Notes under the pieces: generated by a model
Database searches by the model: none
What the model was told of the DNA's origin: nothing
Seen by the model: only the letters and a program-made list of their open reading frames with translations
Source: Acetobacteraceae bacterium
Lineage (GTDB): Bacteria > Pseudomonadota > Alphaproteobacteria > Acetobacterales > Acetobacteraceae
Reading direction: 5' to 3'
DNA length: 64,000 nucleotides
Assembly: GCA_003164135.1 (NCBI GenBank)
Contig: PLSD01000039.1
Span: forward strand, 18,252 to 82,251
Made by a program: the position numbers and the translations under genes
Shown: positions 4,383-49,432 of the stretch, one piece after another
How positions within the stretch are numbered: position 1 is the first letter of the stretch
How the letters are laid out: every line of letters begins with the position of its first letter

Positions 4383-5084
4383 ATGAAATATACAATCGCC
4401 CTTGTCGACGACGACCGGAACATCCTCACCTCAGTCTCCATGACGCTGGAGCAGGAAGGGTTCGACGTGCGGACTTTCACTGATGGAGAGTCGGCATTGC
4501 AGGCGCTCCTCGCCAAACCGGCCGACCTCGCGGTGCTGGACATTAAAATGCCCCGCATGGACGGCATGGAGCTGCTGCAAAAACTGCGCGTGCGTACGGC
4601 GATGCCGGTGATCTTCCTCACCAGCAAGGACGATGAGCTGGACGAGCTGATGGGCCTGCGCCTGGGCGCCGACGATTACATCACCAAGCCGTTCAGCCAG
4701 CGCTTGCTGCTGGAGCGCATCCGCGCCCTGCTACGCCGTAACGAGGCCTCCAAGGCCGAGGGTTCCGGCGCCGCCCCCGCCGCCGTGCTCACGCGCGGCC
4801 ACCTCACGCTGGACGAAACCAAGCACCAGTGCCTCTGGAAGGGGAAGGACATCCAGCTCACCGTGACTGAGTTCCTGCTGGTTAAAGCCCTGGCGCAGCG
4901 CCCCGGCATGGTAAAGTCGCGTGACCAGCTGATTGACGCGGCCTACGGCGAGAATGTATATGTGGACGACCGCACCATCGACAGCCACGTGAAGCGCCTG
5001 CGCAAGAAGTTCCGCAACGAGGACGGCGAGTTCGACCAGATCGAGACGCTCTACGGGATCGGCTACCGCTACAAGGAAGCGTAA
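4383..5084 (+). CDS. chvI: Response regulator, OmpR family, ChvI type
   Basis: Receiver plus winged helix ([16 protein letters not shown]); next to pckA and a ChvG-like kinase. Confidence 0.88.
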
Positions 5085-5117
5085 TTTGGCCCCCTTCCGG
5101 TCGGGTAGCCCCGCATA

Positions 5118-6752
5118 ATGACGCAAAAAAAGCCCCGCCTGTCGCGTCTGCTGCGCGACATCCTGCTGGTTAACCTGCTCCCCCTGGCGCTGATTTTCGC
5201 CGCGTTGTTTTACCTGGACCAGTACCAGCAAGGCCTGCTCAGCGCCGAGGTCTCCGCTTTGCGCGAACAGGCCCGCATCTACGCCGGCGCGCTGGCGCAA
5301 ACCGCCGTGCAGGAAAACAGCAGCGGCGCCACCATCAACCCGGACCTGGCCGCGCCGCTGCTCTACCAGCTCACCGAGCCAACACCTAACGCGCAGGCGC
5401 TTATCTACGGGCCGGATGGCGAGTTGATCGCCAATTCCCGTGTGCACCCCGGCCCAGGCGGGGTGATTATCACCGAACCGCTGTCCGCGCCGCCGCCGCC
5501 GGGCTTTTTCTCCCGCGTGATCGGCTTCATGTACGATCATTTGTTAGGTTCCGTGGCTGGCCAGAACGATGAATCCGGGCTGGTAGGCTCCGGCGCCGGG
5601 GAAGACCCCGCCACGTTGGGCTGGCAGCCTGACGCGCGCGAGGCCCTGCAACTGACCAGCGCCTCCCCGGACCAGGAGGCCCCGCCCTTCGTGCGCAGGG
5701 AGAAACAGGGTGAGCTTCTCATCACCGTCGCCGAGCCGATCGTTAGCAGCCAGCAGAATGTAGGCACCGTCCTGCTGACTCGCGGTGCTGATGAAGTAGA
5801 CAGCGCCGTGCTGGCGGTGCGGATTTCCATCCTCGGCCTGTTTGCCCTGGCACTTGGCCTCACCGTCATCGTCTCCTTCTACCTAGCCCGCACCATCGCC
5901 AGCCCGATCCTGCGCCTGGCCAACGCCGCCGCGCTGATGCGCGAGGGCCGTGCGCGCACCCAGGCGCTGCCGGAGAGCATTACCGACCGCAACGACGAAA
6001 TCGGCACCCTCGCCCGCGCGCTGGACGGCTCGGCCAAAGCCCTGTGGGCCCGCATGGACGCCATCGAGCAATTCGCCGCCGACGTCAGTCACGAAATCAA
6101 AAACCCGCTCTCCTCCATCCGCTCGGCCATCGAAACCCTGAGCCGCGTCGAGGACCCCACCCGCGCCGCCCGCCTGCTCGCCATCATCACCCAGGACGTT
6201 GCGCGGCTGGACCGCCTGATCACCGATATTTCGGACTCCTCGCGCCTGGATTCCGAACTTTCCCGCAGCAAAATGGAAATCGTCGACATGGCGCGCATCC
6301 TCGCCACGCTGGCCGAAATCCATGACGCGACCCGCAAGGAAAACGGCCCCTACGTGCTGGTCGACGCCCCGGCGGTCGGCCTCTTCGTGCGGGGCGCTGA
6401 AAGCCGGCTGGTGCAGGTGCTGCGCAACCTCATTGGCAACGCCATTTCCTTCAGCCCGGCCAACGGCAAAATCTGGCTCCGCGGCCGCGAAACCGGCGGC
6501 ATCGTCGAATTGTCGGTGGAGGATGAAGGCCCAGGCATTCCCGATGCCAAACTCGACGGCATTTTTGACCGTTTCTATTCCGAGCGCCCGCAGAGCGAGC
6601 AGTTCGGCAGCCATTCCGGCCTCGGCCTCTCCATTTCCCGGCAGATCGTGGAAGCGCACCAGGGCCGCATTTCCGCCGAGAACCGCCGCAACGAGGAAGG
6701 TGCGATTATCGGCGCCCGCTTTGTGATAAGATTGCCAAAAGCCGAAGGGTAA
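5118..6752 (+). CDS. chvG: Sensor histidine kinase, ChvG type
   Basis: TM-periplasmic-TM-HAMP, [24 protein letters not shown]-box, [15 protein letters not shown]-box; follows chvI. Confidence 0.87.
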
Positions 6753-40760: not shown

Positions 40761-41696
40761 ATGTTGCTTTCACGCCGGCGGTTTATTTCCACCTCGGTCG
40801 CCTTGGGTGCTGGCTCAGCCTTTTACGCGGGTCCCGCGGCGGCTGACACGCAGGCGCTCAATTGTGTCCTCATCGGCGACTGGGGCCGCAACGGGCATGA
40901 CGACCAGCGCGCCGTCGCGATGCAGATGGGCAAATCGGCGGCCGCCATCGGCAGTCAATTCACAGTTTCCGTCGGCGATAATTTCTACGAAGACGGCGTG
41001 ACCAGTGTGGCCGACCCGCAGTGGGAAAGCTCGTTCGAGCAGATATACACGGCCCAATCCCTGCAATCCCCCTGGAAGGTCATCCTCGGCAACCACGACT
41101 ATCGCGGCAACGTACAGGCGCAACTCGATTACAGCGCCAAGAGCCATCGCTGGCAGCTCCCCGCGCGCTACTACGTGGAAGCGCAAACCCTGCCGGATGG
41201 CGCCCGCGCCGATTTCTTCTACCTGGATACCTCCCCGGTCATTAAAAAATACCTCGGCTCCGCGGTAAAAATCGAAGGGCAGGACTCCCAGGCGCAGCTC
41301 GACTGGCTGGATAAATCCTTGGAGGCCTCGACCGCGCAGTGGAAAATCGTGATCGGCCACCACCCCATCTACACGGCGCTGGATGATTCCGACGGCGAGG
41401 ACCACGACCAGCCGGATCTGGTGGCGCGGTTGAACCCGATTCTCGTGAAGCACGCCGTGCCGATTTACATCTGCGGACACGACCATTTGCTGCAATCGGT
41501 GGCGCTCAACGGCATCACCTACGTCGTCACCGGAGCCGGATCACAGACTTACACCCCTCGCCCGGCGATCCGCGGCGGTTTTGCCTCAGGTGCGCATGGC
41601 TTTATGACTCTGCATATTACCAGTAACAAACTTAACTATAGCCTGGTCGATATGACCGGCAAAGCTCTCTACTCTGGGTTGATAACCCCGGCCTGA
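40761..41696 (+). CDS. Tat-exported metallophosphoesterase (purple acid phosphatase-like)
   Basis: LLSRRRFISTSVALGAGSAFYAG twin-Arg signal; GDWGRNGHDDQ, SVGDNFYEDG, ILGNHDYRGN, CGHDHLLQ. Confidence 0.87.
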   Translation: MLLSRRRFISTSVALGAGSAFYAGPAAADTQALNCVLIGDWGRNGHDDQRAVAMQMGKSAAAIGSQFTVSVGDNFYEDGVTSVADPQWESSFEQIYTAQSLQSPWKVILGNHDYRGNVQAQLDYSAKSHRWQLPARYYVEAQTLPDGARADFFYLDTSPVIKKYLGSAVKIEGQDSQAQLDWLDKSLEASTAQWKIVIGHHPIYTALDDSDGEDHDQPDLVARLNPILVKHAVPIYICGHDHLLQSVALNGITYVVTGAGSQTYTPRPAIRGGFASGAHGFMTLHITSNKLNYSLVDMTGKALYSGLITPA

Positions 41697-41703
41697 GTAA
41701 TCC

Positions 41704-43095
41704 CTAGCCTACCGCGTCCCAGGCCTCTTTCTTGCGGTAGATGGTGGAGGCGCTAATGCCAAGTTTGCGGGCCGCAAGCTGAATATTGCCGTCACACAGG
41801 GTAATGGCGCGTTCCACGTATTGGCGCTCCATATCAGAAAGCTTGATTATTGTTTCGTCGGCCGCCGTAATCACCCGCTCCGGCGCGGCGGGCGTTAGGG
41901 CAGCAATTGGTGCATTTGCGGTTGGCTCGGGCAGCGGCGGCAGCATCTCTTCGGTTAGCACCGGGCCGTTATTTAAAATCATGGCATTATGGATGACGTT
42001 TTGTAACTGCCGGACATTGCCGGGCCAGGAATACTCAAGCAGCCGCGCCTCCGCCTCAGAGCTCAGCGATTTAAAGGCACGGCCCTCCTGCTGCGCCAGC
42101 TCGGTCATAAAGTGCCGGGCGATAAGCAGGATATCCTCGCCGCGGTCCCGCAAGGGCGGCATTTCCAGCGGCACGACGAACAGCCGATAGAACAAATCCT
42201 CGCGTAGCCGGCCTTCCTTCACCGCCTGCATCGGGTCACGGTTGGTGGCCGCGATAAAGCGTATATTCGCCTGGCGTGTGCGGCCTTCGCCCACCCGCTC
42301 GTAGGTGCCGGTCTGGATAAAGCGCAGCAGCTTGGTTTGCAGCGACATGTCCATTTCGCCGATTTCATCGAGGAACAGCGTGCCGCCGTCTGCGCGCGCC
42401 GCCGCACCTTCCTGGTCATTCGTGGCCCCGGTGAAGGAGCCCTTGATATGGCCAAAAATCACGCTTTCCATCAAATCATGCGGAATCGCCCCGCAGTTCA
42501 GCGCTACGCAGCGTTTGTTGGCACGCAGGCTCAACCGGTGCAGCGCCTGCGCCGCCAGTTCCTTGCCGGTCCCGCTCTCACCGGTAATGAACACGCTGGC
42601 ATTACTGCGCGCCGCCGCCTCTATGGTGCGGTACACCTTCTGCATTGGCAGAGAGCGGCCGATGAATCCCTCGAACGCCCCATGCTCCACCGTGCGCCGA
42701 AATGTCTCGACCTCGCGTTTGAGCTGGGTGTTGGAGAGCGCGTTGGAAACGGTGGTCGCCAGCCGCGCCGGGGCAAAGGGCTTCACCAAGTAATCAAACG
42801 CCCCCAACCGCACGGCTTCCACCGCCACGGTGAGCGCCGCATTGGCGGTGGTTACCACGATGGCCGGAGCACTAGGCCATTGCTGTGCCTCGCGCAGAAT
42901 ATCCATGCCGTCCATGTCCGGCAGCTTCAGGTCCAGCAGCATGCAGTCCATCGGCTGCTGGCGCAGCATCGCCAGCCCTTCCTGCCCGGTGGTAGCCACC
43001 AGCACGTTATGGCCCAGCCGTTCAAGTTGCAGTTTGCAGGTTTCGGCGAGCGACGGGCTGTCTTCGACGATGAGGATGGTATTGCTAGGCGGCAT
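41704..43095 (-). CDS. LuxO-like sigma-54-dependent response regulator (REC-AAA+-Fis HTH)
   Basis: ILIVEDSPSLAETC; ITGESGTGKE; GHIKGSFTGATNDQEGAAARADGGTLFLDEIGEMDMSLQTKLLRFIQTGTYERVGEG; NIQLAARKLGISASTIYRKK. Confidence 0.92.
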   Translation of the reverse strand: MPPSNTILIVEDSPSLAETCKLQLERLGHNVLVATTGQEGLAMLRQQPMDCMLLDLKLPDMDGMDILREAQQWPSAPAIVVTTANAALTVAVEAVRLGAFDYLVKPFAPARLATTVSNALSNTQLKREVETFRRTVEHGAFEGFIGRSLPMQKVYRTIEAAARSNASVFITGESGTGKELAAQALHRLSLRANKRCVALNCGAIPHDLMESVIFGHIKGSFTGATNDQEGAAARADGGTLFLDEIGEMDMSLQTKLLRFIQTGTYERVGEGRTRQANIRFIAATNRDPMQAVKEGRLREDLFYRLFVVPLEMPPLRDRGEDILLIARHFMTELAQQEGRAFKSLSSEAEARLLEYSWPGNVRQLQNVIHNAMILNNGPVLTEEMLPPLPEPTANAPIAALTPAAPERVITAADETIIKLSDMERQYVERAITLCDGNIQLAARKLGISASTIYRKKEAWDAVG

Positions 43096-43231
43096 GCGGT
43101 TCTCCTGCCTTGATACCGGCTTCAACCTGGGCCCAGTCGCTTTCCACCTCCGCGAGCAGCCGCTCAAGCTCGGCCACAGGCGCCTCCAGGGCGGCGGCGG
43201 TAAGGCGGGTAGCACTCTGGGAGAGCGCCAT
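43085..43231 (-). pseudogene. C-terminal fragment of a histidine phosphotransfer (Hpt)/kinase protein
   Basis: MALSQSATRLTAAALEAPVAELERLLAEVESDWAQVEAGIKAGEPHAA*, Hpt-tail-like and lacking the His helix; upstream frame is unrelated. Confidence 0.5.
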
Positions 43232-43238
43232 GGCGCAG

Positions 43239-43346
43239 AAATGGGATATCGGCGCGGCCGGATACCTGCCACAGGCCGGTGAGGCCAGGTTTGCCGGCGA
43301 GGCGGCCGCGCTGATACGGGGTGTAGCGTTCAACCTCGGAGGGCAG
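43239..43346 (-). pseudogene. Fragment of bacterial sugar transferase (undecaprenyl-phosphate sugar phosphotransferase type)
   Basis: LPSEVERYTPYQRGRLAGKPGLTGLWQVSGRADIPF, the conserved C-terminal signature, both ends missing. Confidence 0.8.
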
Positions 43347-43683
43347 AGCCGGGGGCGGATTTCTGGAGGTCCGCGGCGGCGGCTTCGGCAATGCCGGGTT
43401 GGCCGCCGAGCAGGAATACGGAGTGGCGGGTTGCGGCCACGCGCTGGCACAGCTGCGGAATAAGGTCCGTACCGTTCAAATTCGCGGTGAGCTTGCGGCC
43501 GTGCAGACGCAGGCCGAGTGTGGTGCCCGAGCCGTCCGGCAGCACGGCGTCGGCGGTGTTCAGGGCGTGCGCGTGGTTATCGTCACGCAGGCTCACGTTA
43601 GCGCAGTGCGCATTATAAAAAGCGATACGCGCCGGCGTGCGCTGTTCAAGGCGGTCGCACAGCCAGTCCAGCGTACTCGGCAT
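43330..43683 (-). pseudogene. N-terminal fragment of WecB/TagA/CpsF family glycosyltransferase
   Basis: RIAFYNAHCANVSLRDDNHAHALNTADAVLPDGSGTTLGLRLHGRKLTANLNGTDLIPQLCQ ... SVFLLGGQPGIAEAAAADLQ then abrupt end. Confidence 0.78.
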
Positions 43684-43830
43684 GTCGCTATTGATGAAGA
43701 TCGTGCCGAGAAGTTTTTCGATAGGCAGCTTATGCGTTATTGTCTCTGTTGTCTAGTTAGCGAGTGCGGCGTTGCCCTGAAACTTATGCATTCGAAGTCT
43801 TCTTGCGTGATAAAATATCGAGAACGCAGG

Positions 43831-43846
43831 AGCAGGGGCCGTGCCA
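43831..43846 (-). promoter_or_regulatory. Candidate sigma-54 promoter P1 (leftward)
   Basis: Minus strand TGGCACGGCCCCTGCT vs TGGCACG-N4-TTGCW; GG/GC spacing correct, one mismatch. Confidence 0.65.
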
Positions 43847-43959
43847 TGTTATTAAGGTATTGAAATTATTAAATAATTGGCAATTCTCACGCGGTCGTGA
43901 TGCGCTTGCTTCGCACAATACTAGAATGTTCCGTAGCAAATCTCGAATGGTCTCGTGAA

Positions 43960-44021
43960 ATGCAATTTGCAAAGTGCCAGGGTGGATTCTCGCAAAATGC
44001 AATTGGTGTGGCGAAATGCAA
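43960..44021. promoter_or_regulatory. Cluster of three LuxO-like operator sites (candidate UAS)
   Basis: ATGCA-ATT-TGCAA (43960-43972), TCGCA-AAA-TGCAA (43990-44002), TGGCG-AAA-TGCAA (44009-44021). Confidence 0.6.
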
Positions 44022-44099
44022 GGGGCGGCGCGGGGTGCGGTAGCGGGGGGTATAGTGCAACTTATTGAAATAAACAGGAATTATGGAAATGGCATCGTC

Positions 44100-44115
44100 T
44101 GGCCCGATCCTTGAA
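44100..44115 (+). promoter_or_regulatory. Candidate sigma-54 promoter P2 (rightward)
   Basis: TGGCCCGATCCTTGAA; mismatches at -12 GC (GA) and one -24 position; 31 bp before the glycosyltransferase ATG. Confidence 0.5.
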
Positions 44116-44146
44116 TAGAGGCGGGGGTAACCCGAGGAGCCTTGTT

Positions 44147-45094
44147 ATGAAAAAGCTGAACAACCCGATGATCACGGTTATCATGCCCTGCTACAACGCG
44201 CAGGACACTTTGCGCTGCGCCGTTGAGAGTGTGCTGACGCAGAGCGTAACGGATTTTGAGCTGCTGATTATTGATGATGGCTCCACGGATGTTTCCGTCG
44301 CGGTGGCCCGTGACCTGGCGGTTAAGGATAAGCGTATCCGCCTGATCCGCCAGCACAACGCCGGGCCGGCCGAGGCACGCAACCGCGGCTTGGCGGAAGC
44401 CACCGGCCAATACATCGCTTTTCTGGATGCTGATGATCGCTGGGCGCCTAATTTACTGGAGCGCCACCTCGCGCAATTTGCCGCGCATGCGGATTGCGGC
44501 GTGTCGTTCGCGCGGGTGCGTTTTTATGACAAATATCTACGTCGCGCCGGCAGTGTTTCGGCGGCGGTGACGCATTTGCAGCTGGGCGAGGTGCTGGGCG
44601 AATATCCGGTGTGCACCACCTCCAACCTGATGTGCCGGCGCGAAGTGTATGAGGCCGCGGGCGGCTTCGACCCCAGCCTCACCCATGGCGAGGACCAGGA
44701 ATGGATTGCCCGCGTGCTGGCGACGACGCCCTGGCAGGTGCGCGGTGTGAAGGAAATTCTCGTGCATTACCGCACCTCGCCCGGCGGGCTTTCGGCTGAA
44801 TTGGAGAAGATGCAGGAAGGCTGGGAGGCGATGTTGGAATGCGTGCGCAGCTACGCGCCGAAAGAAGTCGCGAAGGCGGAGCCGGAGGCCGATGCGCTGT
44901 TCCACCGCTACCTCGCGCGCCGCGCCCTGCGCACCGGCCAGCCGCGCCTGAGTCTGCAGCCGCTGCTGCGCGCCTGGCGCGTCTGCCCACGCGCCCTGCT
45001 GCGGCACGCGCCGAGCCGCACCTTGCTCACCACGGCCGGCGTGCTCGCCGCCATGCTGCCTTTCAATCCCACCCGCATTTTGCTGGCACGCTGA
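44147..45094 (+). CDS. Family 2 glycosyltransferase
   Basis: ITVIMPCYNAQDTLRCAVESVLTQSVTDFELLIIDDGSTD; FLDADDRWAPNLLE; RBS-like GAGGAG before ATG 44147. Confidence 0.92.
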   Translation: MKKLNNPMITVIMPCYNAQDTLRCAVESVLTQSVTDFELLIIDDGSTDVSVAVARDLAVKDKRIRLIRQHNAGPAEARNRGLAEATGQYIAFLDADDRWAPNLLERHLAQFAAHADCGVSFARVRFYDKYLRRAGSVSAAVTHLQLGEVLGEYPVCTTSNLMCRREVYEAAGGFDPSLTHGEDQEWIARVLATTPWQVRGVKEILVHYRTSPGGLSAELEKMQEGWEAMLECVRSYAPKEVAKAEPEADALFHRYLARRALRTGQPRLSLQPLLRAWRVCPRALLRHAPSRTLLTTAGVLAAMLPFNPTRILLAR

Positions 45095-45115
45095 ATTTTT
45101 TAAGGAATTTTCAAA

Positions 45116-46111
45116 ATGAACACCATCACCCCGCGCGTGAGCGTCATCATGCCGGTTTATCATGTCGAGGCCTATGTCGGGATCGCAATTCAATCCGTGC
45201 TCAACCAGAGCTTTACGGATTTTGAGCTGATCATCGTCGATGACGGCGGCCATGATAACAGTGTCGCCATTTGCCGGGGTTTTGATGATGAGCGCATCCG
45301 CATTGTCAGCCAGAAGAATCGCGGCGTGGCCGGTGCGCGCAATACCGGCATCGCCCAGGCGCGCGGCGCCTACATCGCGCTGCTGGACAGTGACGATATC
45401 TGGATGCCGGAAAAACTTGCCGTGCATGTCGCGCATCTGGATGCCAAGCCCGATGTCGGCGCCAGTTATGCCGCAGCCGCGCTGATCGACGAGCAGGGCC
45501 ATTTTCTGCGCATCCGCCAGCAGCCCAAGCTTGGGCCGGTCAGTGCGAAGGATGTGTTTTGCGGGCGTGCCATTTCCAACGGGTCTACGCCCGTGTTTCG
45601 CATGGAAATGCTGGCTGAGGCCGCGCTGAATCACGACAATGAAGGCCATGTGTGGTATTTTGAGGAATCCTTGCGCCGCTCGGAAGATGTGGAGTGCTGG
45701 ACCCGCCTGGCCTTGCTCAACACCTTGCGTTTTGAGGCGTTGCCAGGCGCGTACACCTGCAATCGCGTGAACTCCGCGAGCCTTTCGGCGGATGTGATCC
45801 GCCAGCTCGCCTCCTGGGAAGAGATGTGCGCCTGCATCGCGCAATTCGCCCCCGGCTTCATCGCCATGCACCAAGCCGAGGCCCGGGCGCGCGAACTGCG
45901 TTACCTAGCGCGCCGCTGCGTGTTCATGCGGGACCACGCGTTGGGGCTCTCCTTGATCCTCGAGGCGGTTTCAATCTCACCACAATTGCTGTGGCGGGAG
46001 CCAATTAAAACCGGCACGACCTTGCTCGCGTGCCGCGCCTTGCGCGCGTTGCCACAAGCGGGCTTTACCCAGTTGGTGCGCTTTGCCCGCCCGCTATCAT
46101 CGGGCGTGTGA
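45116..46111 (+). CDS. Family 2 glycosyltransferase
   Basis: VSVIMPVYHVEAYVGIAIQSVLNQSFTDFELIIVDDGGHD; LLDSDDIWMPEKL. Confidence 0.92.
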   Translation: MNTITPRVSVIMPVYHVEAYVGIAIQSVLNQSFTDFELIIVDDGGHDNSVAICRGFDDERIRIVSQKNRGVAGARNTGIAQARGAYIALLDSDDIWMPEKLAVHVAHLDAKPDVGASYAAAALIDEQGHFLRIRQQPKLGPVSAKDVFCGRAISNGSTPVFRMEMLAEAALNHDNEGHVWYFEESLRRSEDVECWTRLALLNTLRFEALPGAYTCNRVNSASLSADVIRQLASWEEMCACIAQFAPGFIAMHQAEARARELRYLARRCVFMRDHALGLSLILEAVSISPQLLWREPIKTGTTLLACRALRALPQAGFTQLVRFARPLSSGV

Positions 46112-46122
46112 ACCCGGCTTAA

Positions 46123-48846
<2,724 letters not shown>

Positions 48847-48852
48847 CCGGGA

Positions 48853-49245
48853 ATGCTCATTTGCATTGTCGATGACAGCGACACGAATTTAACCCTCCTG
48901 GAGCTTTCCCTGCAACGGCTGGACCCATCGTTGCGCTTTGCGGTTTTTACCGACCCGCTCGCCGCCCTGGAGGCATGCGCGCGCGATCTGCCGGATGTCG
49001 TCTTGGTGGATTACATGATGCCGGGGATCGACGGCTGCACGTTCATCGCCCGCTTTCGCGCTCTGCCCGGGGCTGAGGAGATTCCCGTGGTGCTGAGCAC
49101 CGCCGCGACCGAGCGCGAGATCAAGCGCCGGGCGATCGAGCTGGGAGTCACGGATTTCCTGCCCAAGCCGGTGGACCCCCATGAGCTGAAGACGCGCATG
49201 CGATGCATGATCGCCCTGCGCCGCCTCACCCAACGCGCCGGCTGA
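48853..49245 (+). CDS. Stand-alone receiver domain (RpfG-type REC without output domain)
   Basis: CIVDDSDTNLTLLELSLQ; DVVLVDYMMPGIDG; GVTDFLPKPVDPHELKTRMRCMIALRR; 6 bp after kinase stop. Confidence 0.88.
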   Translation: MLICIVDDSDTNLTLLELSLQRLDPSLRFAVFTDPLAALEACARDLPDVVLVDYMMPGIDGCTFIARFRALPGAEEIPVVLSTAATEREIKRRAIELGVTDFLPKPVDPHELKTRMRCMIALRRLTQRAG

Positions 49246-49432
49246 ACCCGGAGTTTTCCTCGCCCCGCCACTCGGCTCTTGACAATCACTGACTAAACTG
49301 TCGAGTATTAGACGGAAACGACGATCTGCCGCCCTATCCCAGGCGGCAGCGTCCGTGCGGGGAGAAAAATAGCCGGATAAATCGCCGGCTTCCCGGCATG
49401 GGCAAGGCGTCAGCCGGGAAGGAGAGCACGCG

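Follow-up and report, generated by a model that had tools for sequence, protein, structure and literature searches.

A predicted LuxO/SypG-type sigma-54 enhancer between divergent promoters on an exchangeable polysaccharide gene island of an Acetobacteraceae bacterium

Results

The analysed stretch of DNA (the window) was 64 kb long and belonged to a 4.4-Mb draft genome consisting of 137 contigs with a contamination estimate of 5.4%. A blastn comparison against stretches of the congener G009 revealed a 7.7-kb island at 41697–49399, as synteny with G009 ended at 41696 and was picked up again at 49400. At the corresponding place, G009 holds a different and more AT-rich gene set (53% GC), which is probably polysaccharide-related as judged by eye. 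The regulator gene of the island was not found in any of 37 other genomes of the genus at E ≤ 1e-90, and its conservation could therefore be tested only in more distant genomes. The glutathione synthase encoded 2 kb from the regulator was 94% identical to that of G009; this identity, together with the collinear flanks, indicated that the contig belongs to the genus and that only the 7.7-kb island is foreign, and bin contamination was thus rejected as the source of the contig. Since the G009 flanks are collinear and the regulator is absent from the congeners, a cassette was exchanged at this place, and with it came a separate set of regulator, kinase and receiver genes, operators, and glycosyltransferase genes. 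The predicted exchange spot extends from a metallophosphoesterase gene to 49400.

The regulator (41704–43095, minus strand) is a sigma-54-dependent response regulator of the LuxO/SypG superfamily, as determined by Pfam and NCBIfam searches, a PDB match, a phylogenetic tree, and an alignment. Its Pfam domain order is REC, LuxO-type linker, AAA+, and Fis-type HTH. The best NCBIfam match was LuxO, at 530 bits where the cut-off is 800, while a LuxU-linked Vibrionaceae LuxO (L183) received 829 bits and a SypG-type protein 645. The best solved relative was LuxO 5ep0 (402 bits, compared to 297 for the NtrC-family structure 1ny5). The linker alignment showed the G that is conserved in the G-A-x-[FY]-x-GFIG stretch, and the AAA+ domain carried GSFTGA in place of GAFTGA, which was also seen in the homologue of locus L050.

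A quick maximum-likelihood tree with SH-aLRT supports, the backbone of which was weak, placed the regulator in a 100% group with its homologues from G283, L049 (an uncultured Rhodospirillales), L050, and L052 (the last two being Acetobacteraceae/Alphaproteobacteria loci). Vibrionaceae LuxO formed a 100% group of 20 rows that excluded the window regulator, and the gammaproteobacterial SypF-linked SypG-type regulators also grouped apart from it with 99% support. On its 3' side the regulator gene is flanked by the convergent metallophosphoesterase gene and not by luxU, and the Hpt remnant lies on its upstream side, whereas in Vibrionaceae the Hpt gene luxU follows luxO. The gene before the regulator is a hybrid kinase with a terminal Hpt in SypG-type loci, and an intact free Hpt gene (Pfam Hpt) in G283 and L049; the window retains only the remnant upstream of the regulator, and its kinase has a C-terminal Hpt. 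A Qrr RNA search of the 64-kb window gave no Rfam match. Membership in LuxO was rejected on the bit score below the cut-off, the clade, and the lack of luxU downstream, and membership in PrsR of the PEP-CTERM system on 376.8 bits against the TIGR02915 cut-off of 502.6. Because the tree grouping differs from those of both LuxO and SypG, as does the Hpt gene order in G283 and L049, the regulator is best read as a superfamily member outside the two named families, in a separate alphaproteobacterial clade. The initial annotation had placed a LuxO-like activator less than 1 kb from the operators; a LuxO-superfamily activator does lie at approximately 0.75 kb, but it is not LuxO itself.

Upstream of the regulator, on the same strand, only gene fragments could be recognized. 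These were a C-terminal Hpt remnant (43097–43234; 35% identical over 46 aa to the Hpt of G283 in a weak and short tblastn match), a fragment of a bacterial sugar transferase domain (43239–43358; 65% over 40 aa to residues 396–435 of the L049 protein), and the N-terminal remnant of wecG (43333–43791; Pfam Glyco_tran_WecG). The wecG remnant has an in-frame TAG after 12 codons, and about 240 codons are absent between the WecG and sugar-transferase fragments. On the plus strand lie two family 2 glycosyltransferase genes, GT1 (44147–45094) and GT2 (45116–46111), both matching Pfam PF00535 and showing 47% and 59% identity to their syntenic homologues in L049, respectively. They are followed by further plus-strand reading frames at 46316–48846, a short ORF and then a sensor kinase, which were delineated using Pfam, codon-position composition, and hydropathy. 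The short ORF, starting at 46316, has a lipoprotein-like start (by eye) and lies in another frame than the kinase. The kinase combines half an APC permease domain with HAMP, HisKA, HATPase, and a C-terminal Hpt domain. Its long ORF (46123–48846) opens upstream of the second operator cluster described below; the first ~120 codons are without coding composition, which appears only from about 46480. The half APC-type permease sensor and this non-coding ORF start suggest a fusion scar or a misassembly. A stand-alone receiver domain (48853–49245, plus strand; Pfam Response_reg) is a possible phosphorelay partner. With wecG and the Hpt gene broken and the product of the 46316–48846 frames apparently truncated, the cassette may be in decay or wrongly assembled.

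The intergenic region, which is richer in AT than its surroundings, contains three candidate LuxO-type 13-mers between two sigma-54-like elements facing outward, at exactly the coordinates that had been claimed for them: operator 1 (ATGCAATTTGCAA, 43960–43972), operator 2 (TCGCAAAATGCAA, 43990–44002), and operator 3 (TGGCGAAATGCAA, 44009–44021). The register of operator 1 is ambiguous because it is embedded in an overlap shifted by 7 bp (43953/43967). Compared to TTGCAWWWTGCAA, which has been published as the upstream site of LuxO (PMC10162802), they agree at 12/13, 12/13, and 11/13 positions, in line with the one or two mismatches noted earlier. Simulation of the 407-bp intergenic region with the same dinucleotide make-up produced 0.1 operator sites on average, and a triple within 60 bp occurred in 1 of 2000 composition-matched simulations. 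None of 60 simulations of 64 kb contained a triple, compared to two in the real window, overlapping in the same cluster. Genome-wide, 164 operator sites were found at two or fewer mismatches, while the reversed pattern gave 86.

On the minus strand, the sigma-54 -24/-12 element P1 (TGGCACGgcccCTGCT, 43846–43831) received a pattern score of 15/16, with GG at -24 and GC at -12. The first base of P1 is 55 nt away from the wecG ATG (43791). The plus-strand element P2 (TGGCCCGatccTTGAA, 44100–44115), whose start codon is 47 nt 3', scored 14/16 and is non-canonical, as its -12 pair is GA and the C is missing. Strict elements scoring at least 15 are expected by chance 0.013 times per 407 bp and P2-grade elements 0.13 times; P2 is therefore weak taken alone. 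Counted to the first base of each element, the operator edges lie approximately 113–162 nt from P1 and 78–127 nt from P2, where about 80–115 bp from each -24 had been proposed. No match to a sigma-70 promoter was found in the intergenic region. The sigma factor gene rpoN, the absence of which would have counted against the proposal, is present in the genome. As proposed, P2 reads toward two glycosyltransferases. The proposed targets of P1 are indeed there as wecG and sugar-transferase remnants, but the gene is broken and the regulator is the main intact gene in its path.

A second operator cluster (46149–46205; TCGCATTTTGCGA at 46149, TCCCATTTTGCAA at 46169, and CCGCATTTTGCGA at 46193) lies 2 kb from the first and has its own sigma-54 element, P3 (TGGCGCGagaaTTGCG, 46266–46281, plus strand), 2.2 kb downstream of P2; the ATG at 46316 is 50 nt 3' of P3. 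In the same genome, every occurrence of the stringent sigma-54 pattern TGGCVCGNNNNTTGM was collected, and the 230 bp upstream of each were inspected, using ~700-bp stretches around the matches. The pattern matched 78 times, compared to 22 for its reverse. LuxO-type operators were absent upstream of 71 matches, a single one was present at 4, and only P2, P3, and an element on another contig, C8:4751 (TGGCACGagaaTTGAA, within the region 4600–5158 of locus L149, G000:C8), had three or more. The operators of C8:4751 form a third cluster of three. Operator starts lie 73–121 nt upstream of P3 and C8:4751 and 91–147 nt upstream of P2, and the spacing at all three promoters is 19–24 or 30 bp, close to two or three turns of the helix. 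The unusual -12 TTGAA of P2 recurs in C8:4751, which speaks for P2 being real. Downstream of C8:4751 lies a gene with a family 4 glycosyltransferase-like start (VVHSIDDPALGGVTRCVDAL, by eye) that breaks off close to the end of the contig. Two of the three clustered promoters stand before glycosyltransferases. A P450-ferredoxin gene pair, read by eye, precedes the C8:4751 cluster. Since the -12 of P1 is CTGCT, P1 was found separately from the TGGCVCGNNNNTTGM matches and is a candidate fourth promoter of the set. The genome may hold further operator clusters away from stringent sigma-54 matches, the two-mismatch sites having been covered among the matches listed, to contig C18.

The surroundings of regulator homologues were surveyed in 100 loci (L049–L148), with 20 permuted palindromes as control. 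At least two palindromes upstream of a sigma-54 element were present at 23 promoters, compared to a mean of 0.85 for the controls; under other thresholds the count was 30 against 2.9. At 17 of the 23 promoters an ORF starts 40–70 nt past the -24 base, the start codon being mostly at 45–61 nt. The genes behind these promoters encode NAD-dependent epimerases, glycosyltransferases, a flippase, a STAS protein, and hybrid kinases. One operator cluster common to two divergent sigma-54 elements was seen in seven loci (L074, L078, L079, L080, L100, L106, and L134), and the bidirectional layout is therefore not peculiar to the window. In L134 (6112–6263, genome G201), a common operator cluster separates the divergent genes of a glycosyltransferase and of a 96-aa protein that is STAS-like by eye, a SypA-like layout in an alphaproteobacterium. 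Behind operator and sigma-54 promoters at L078 9727, L103 11101, and L123 5444 lie genes for large proteins that look secreted and, read by eye, have LruC-like C-termini; in these gammaproteobacterial loci they are possible matrix proteins of the same regulon. Among the control palindromes, TGTCAWWWTGACA, which we take to be a NorR-like palindrome, occurred near sigma-54 elements 7 times in these loci, above the other controls and their mean of 0.85, and is perhaps the site of another activator.

In G283, whose regulator is 77% identical, the sole perfect site in 5.6 Mb is located ~50 bp from the regulator gene and is accompanied by a sigma-54 element. For G422, to which L049 belongs, the sole perfect site in 4.5 Mb lies upstream of a polysaccharide flippase beside the regulator, and in G201 four of five near-perfect sites are on the contig of the regulator. 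Locus L049 has the layout of the window, with GT2 and GT1 in one direction and a WecG-sugar-transferase fusion, Hpt, and the regulator in the other. Its shared intergenic region carries outward sigma-54-like elements ~55 nt before each gene, while the operators there are only degenerate; canonical operators precede the flippase (10629) and the epimerase (13211), at two other promoters of the locus. When the intergenic regions of the window and of L049 were aligned, no extended conservation emerged. In this relative with the same genes, the sigma-54-like elements on both sides were thus kept, and the operators only in degenerate form.

Discussion

The sigma-54 elements, the clustering of the operators, their recurrence, the homology, and the synteny could be established computationally. 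The arrangement is probably a real LuxO/SypG-type sigma-54 enhancer, at which the regulator would occupy shared operators, serve P2, P1, P3, and C8:4751, and exert feedback on its own gene within a small polysaccharide regulon. This reading is favored because the operators exceed chance, cluster at only three promoters, and recur beside homologues, and because rpoN is present. Points against it are the -12 GA of P2, the damaged wecG and Hpt genes, the apparently truncated P3 product, the GSFTGA of the regulator, and the degenerate operators of the L049 intergenic region. The regulator would be phosphorylated, probably via the Hpt domain of the neighboring kinase, and would bind the three TGCA-WWW-TGCA palindromes at 43960–44021 as dimers. 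Looping of the bound protein to RNAP-sigma54 would then activate P2, serving GT1 and GT2, and the divergent P1. As the wecG/sugar-transferase and Hpt genes are broken, P1 would now mainly read through the remnants toward the regulator, and this direction suggests positive autoregulation, that is, a positive feedback loop. The same regulator could also activate P3 (46266) and the glycosyltransferase promoter C8:4751, in a small polysaccharide regulon carried mainly on the 7.7-kb exchangeable island. We infer binding, activation, phosphorelay, and autoregulation from these patterns. In the initial annotation, the region was proposed as a bidirectional LuxO/RpoN enhancer for exopolysaccharide genes; the comparative evidence, the LuxO-type operators, and rpoN uphold the core of this proposal, while the activator is another than LuxO and the P1 gene is broken.

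Some of the geometry would also suit a cluster that acts in one direction, activating P2 only, with P1 as an evolutionary leftover before a broken gene. The nearest operator starts 73–91 nt upstream of P2, P3, and C8:4751, whereas P1 is farther away at 113–162 nt; the clusters before P3 and C8:4751 are one-sided, and the gene behind P1 is interrupted by a nonsense codon and has lost internal segments. However, enhancers tolerate distances such as that of P1, which is the better -24/-12 match of the two and whose 55-nt distance to the wecG ATG fits the 45–61 nt of the relatives. Moreover, the regulator lies downstream of P1, and divergent use is seen again in other loci. A one-way cluster is thus unlikely, though it is the alternative to be taken most seriously.

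It is improbable that the sites bind another activator, such as a PrsR-type protein of the PEP-CTERM system, with the adjacent regulator as a bystander. At PEP-CTERM promoters, too, an activator motif lies upstream of a sigma-54 element (PMC1569441), and the regulator has a PrsR match, albeit below threshold; but the palindrome occurs beside regulator homologues in many genomes, in two of which the sole perfect site is found there, and the family that the regulator matches best, LuxO, has this palindrome as its published site. Chance, by which AT-rich intergenic DNA would have yielded accidental TGCA palindromes and sigma-54 matches, is very improbable. The AT-richness of the region and the expectation for P2, which alone is not significant, speak for it. 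They are outweighed by the rarity of triples under matched composition (~1/2000), by the restriction of clusters to 3 of the 78 stringent sigma-54 matches, of which two precede glycosyltransferases, and by the recurrence across genomes far above controls.

Under the favored enhancer reading, the function of the regulator would be closer to that of SypG of Vibrio fischeri than to that of LuxO, judging by analogy. SypG acts via sites overlapping TTGCAWWWTGCAA and drives a polysaccharide locus (PMC10162802). Both systems combine a LuxO-superfamily sigma-54 regulator with polysaccharide genes and upstream palindromic enhancers, as predicted for the window, and an Hpt, which feeds SypG, may also feed the window regulator. 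Sigma-54 elements with putative enhancers stand before polysaccharide genes at P2 and C8:4751 and, in relatives, before epimerase, flippase, glycosyltransferase, and STAS genes; the STAS gene behind such a promoter in L134 is SypA-like by domain. Divergent promoters with common operators are likewise found in gammaproteobacterial SypF-SypG-type loci. The window differs in that its regulator branches outside the SypG clade, its operators are LuxO-like and unlike the SypG motif TTCTCANNNTGMDWN, and its kinase, unlike SypF, pairs a permease-like sensor half with a receiver that is separate. It is also an alphaproteobacterial island with two family 2 glycosyltransferases, unlike the syp locus.

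The LuxO-LuxU-Qrr relay shares with the window the regulator domain order, the LuxO-type linker, the operator palindrome TTGCAWWWTGCAA, and, by prediction, sigma-54 dependence; the putative sites deviate from the palindrome by one or two mismatches, and perfect ones stand beside homologues. In contrast to that relay, the regulator falls below the cut-off and outside the clade, no Qrr match exists in the 64-kb window, and the predicted targets are polysaccharide genes. PrsK-PrsR/PEP-CTERM (PMC1569441, PMC9850573) resembles the window as an exopolysaccharide-linked sigma-54 regulon with one activator motif 5' of -24/-12, but the window regulator is below the PrsR cut-off and its predicted targets are glycosyltransferases.

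In the literature searched, the LuxO operator was described for vibrios only. With its presence ahead of polysaccharide genes and beside homologues in Alpha- and Gammaproteobacteria, the ancestral role of the LuxO/SypG superfamily becomes testable. It is quite possible, though we put this forward tentatively, that TTGCAWWWTGCAA is an ancient code of the superfamily in both classes, with polysaccharide switching via sigma-54 as the original function, often from shared operators between divergent promoters, the quorum-sensing LuxO of vibrios as a derived and specialized form, and the window as a deep alphaproteobacterial branch on a mobile polysaccharide cassette. A divergent enhancer of this kind would be a compact means of co-switching the regulator and the biosynthetic genes, and the operator and sigma-54 pattern is a ready predictor of polysaccharide and biofilm regulons in uncultured bacteria.
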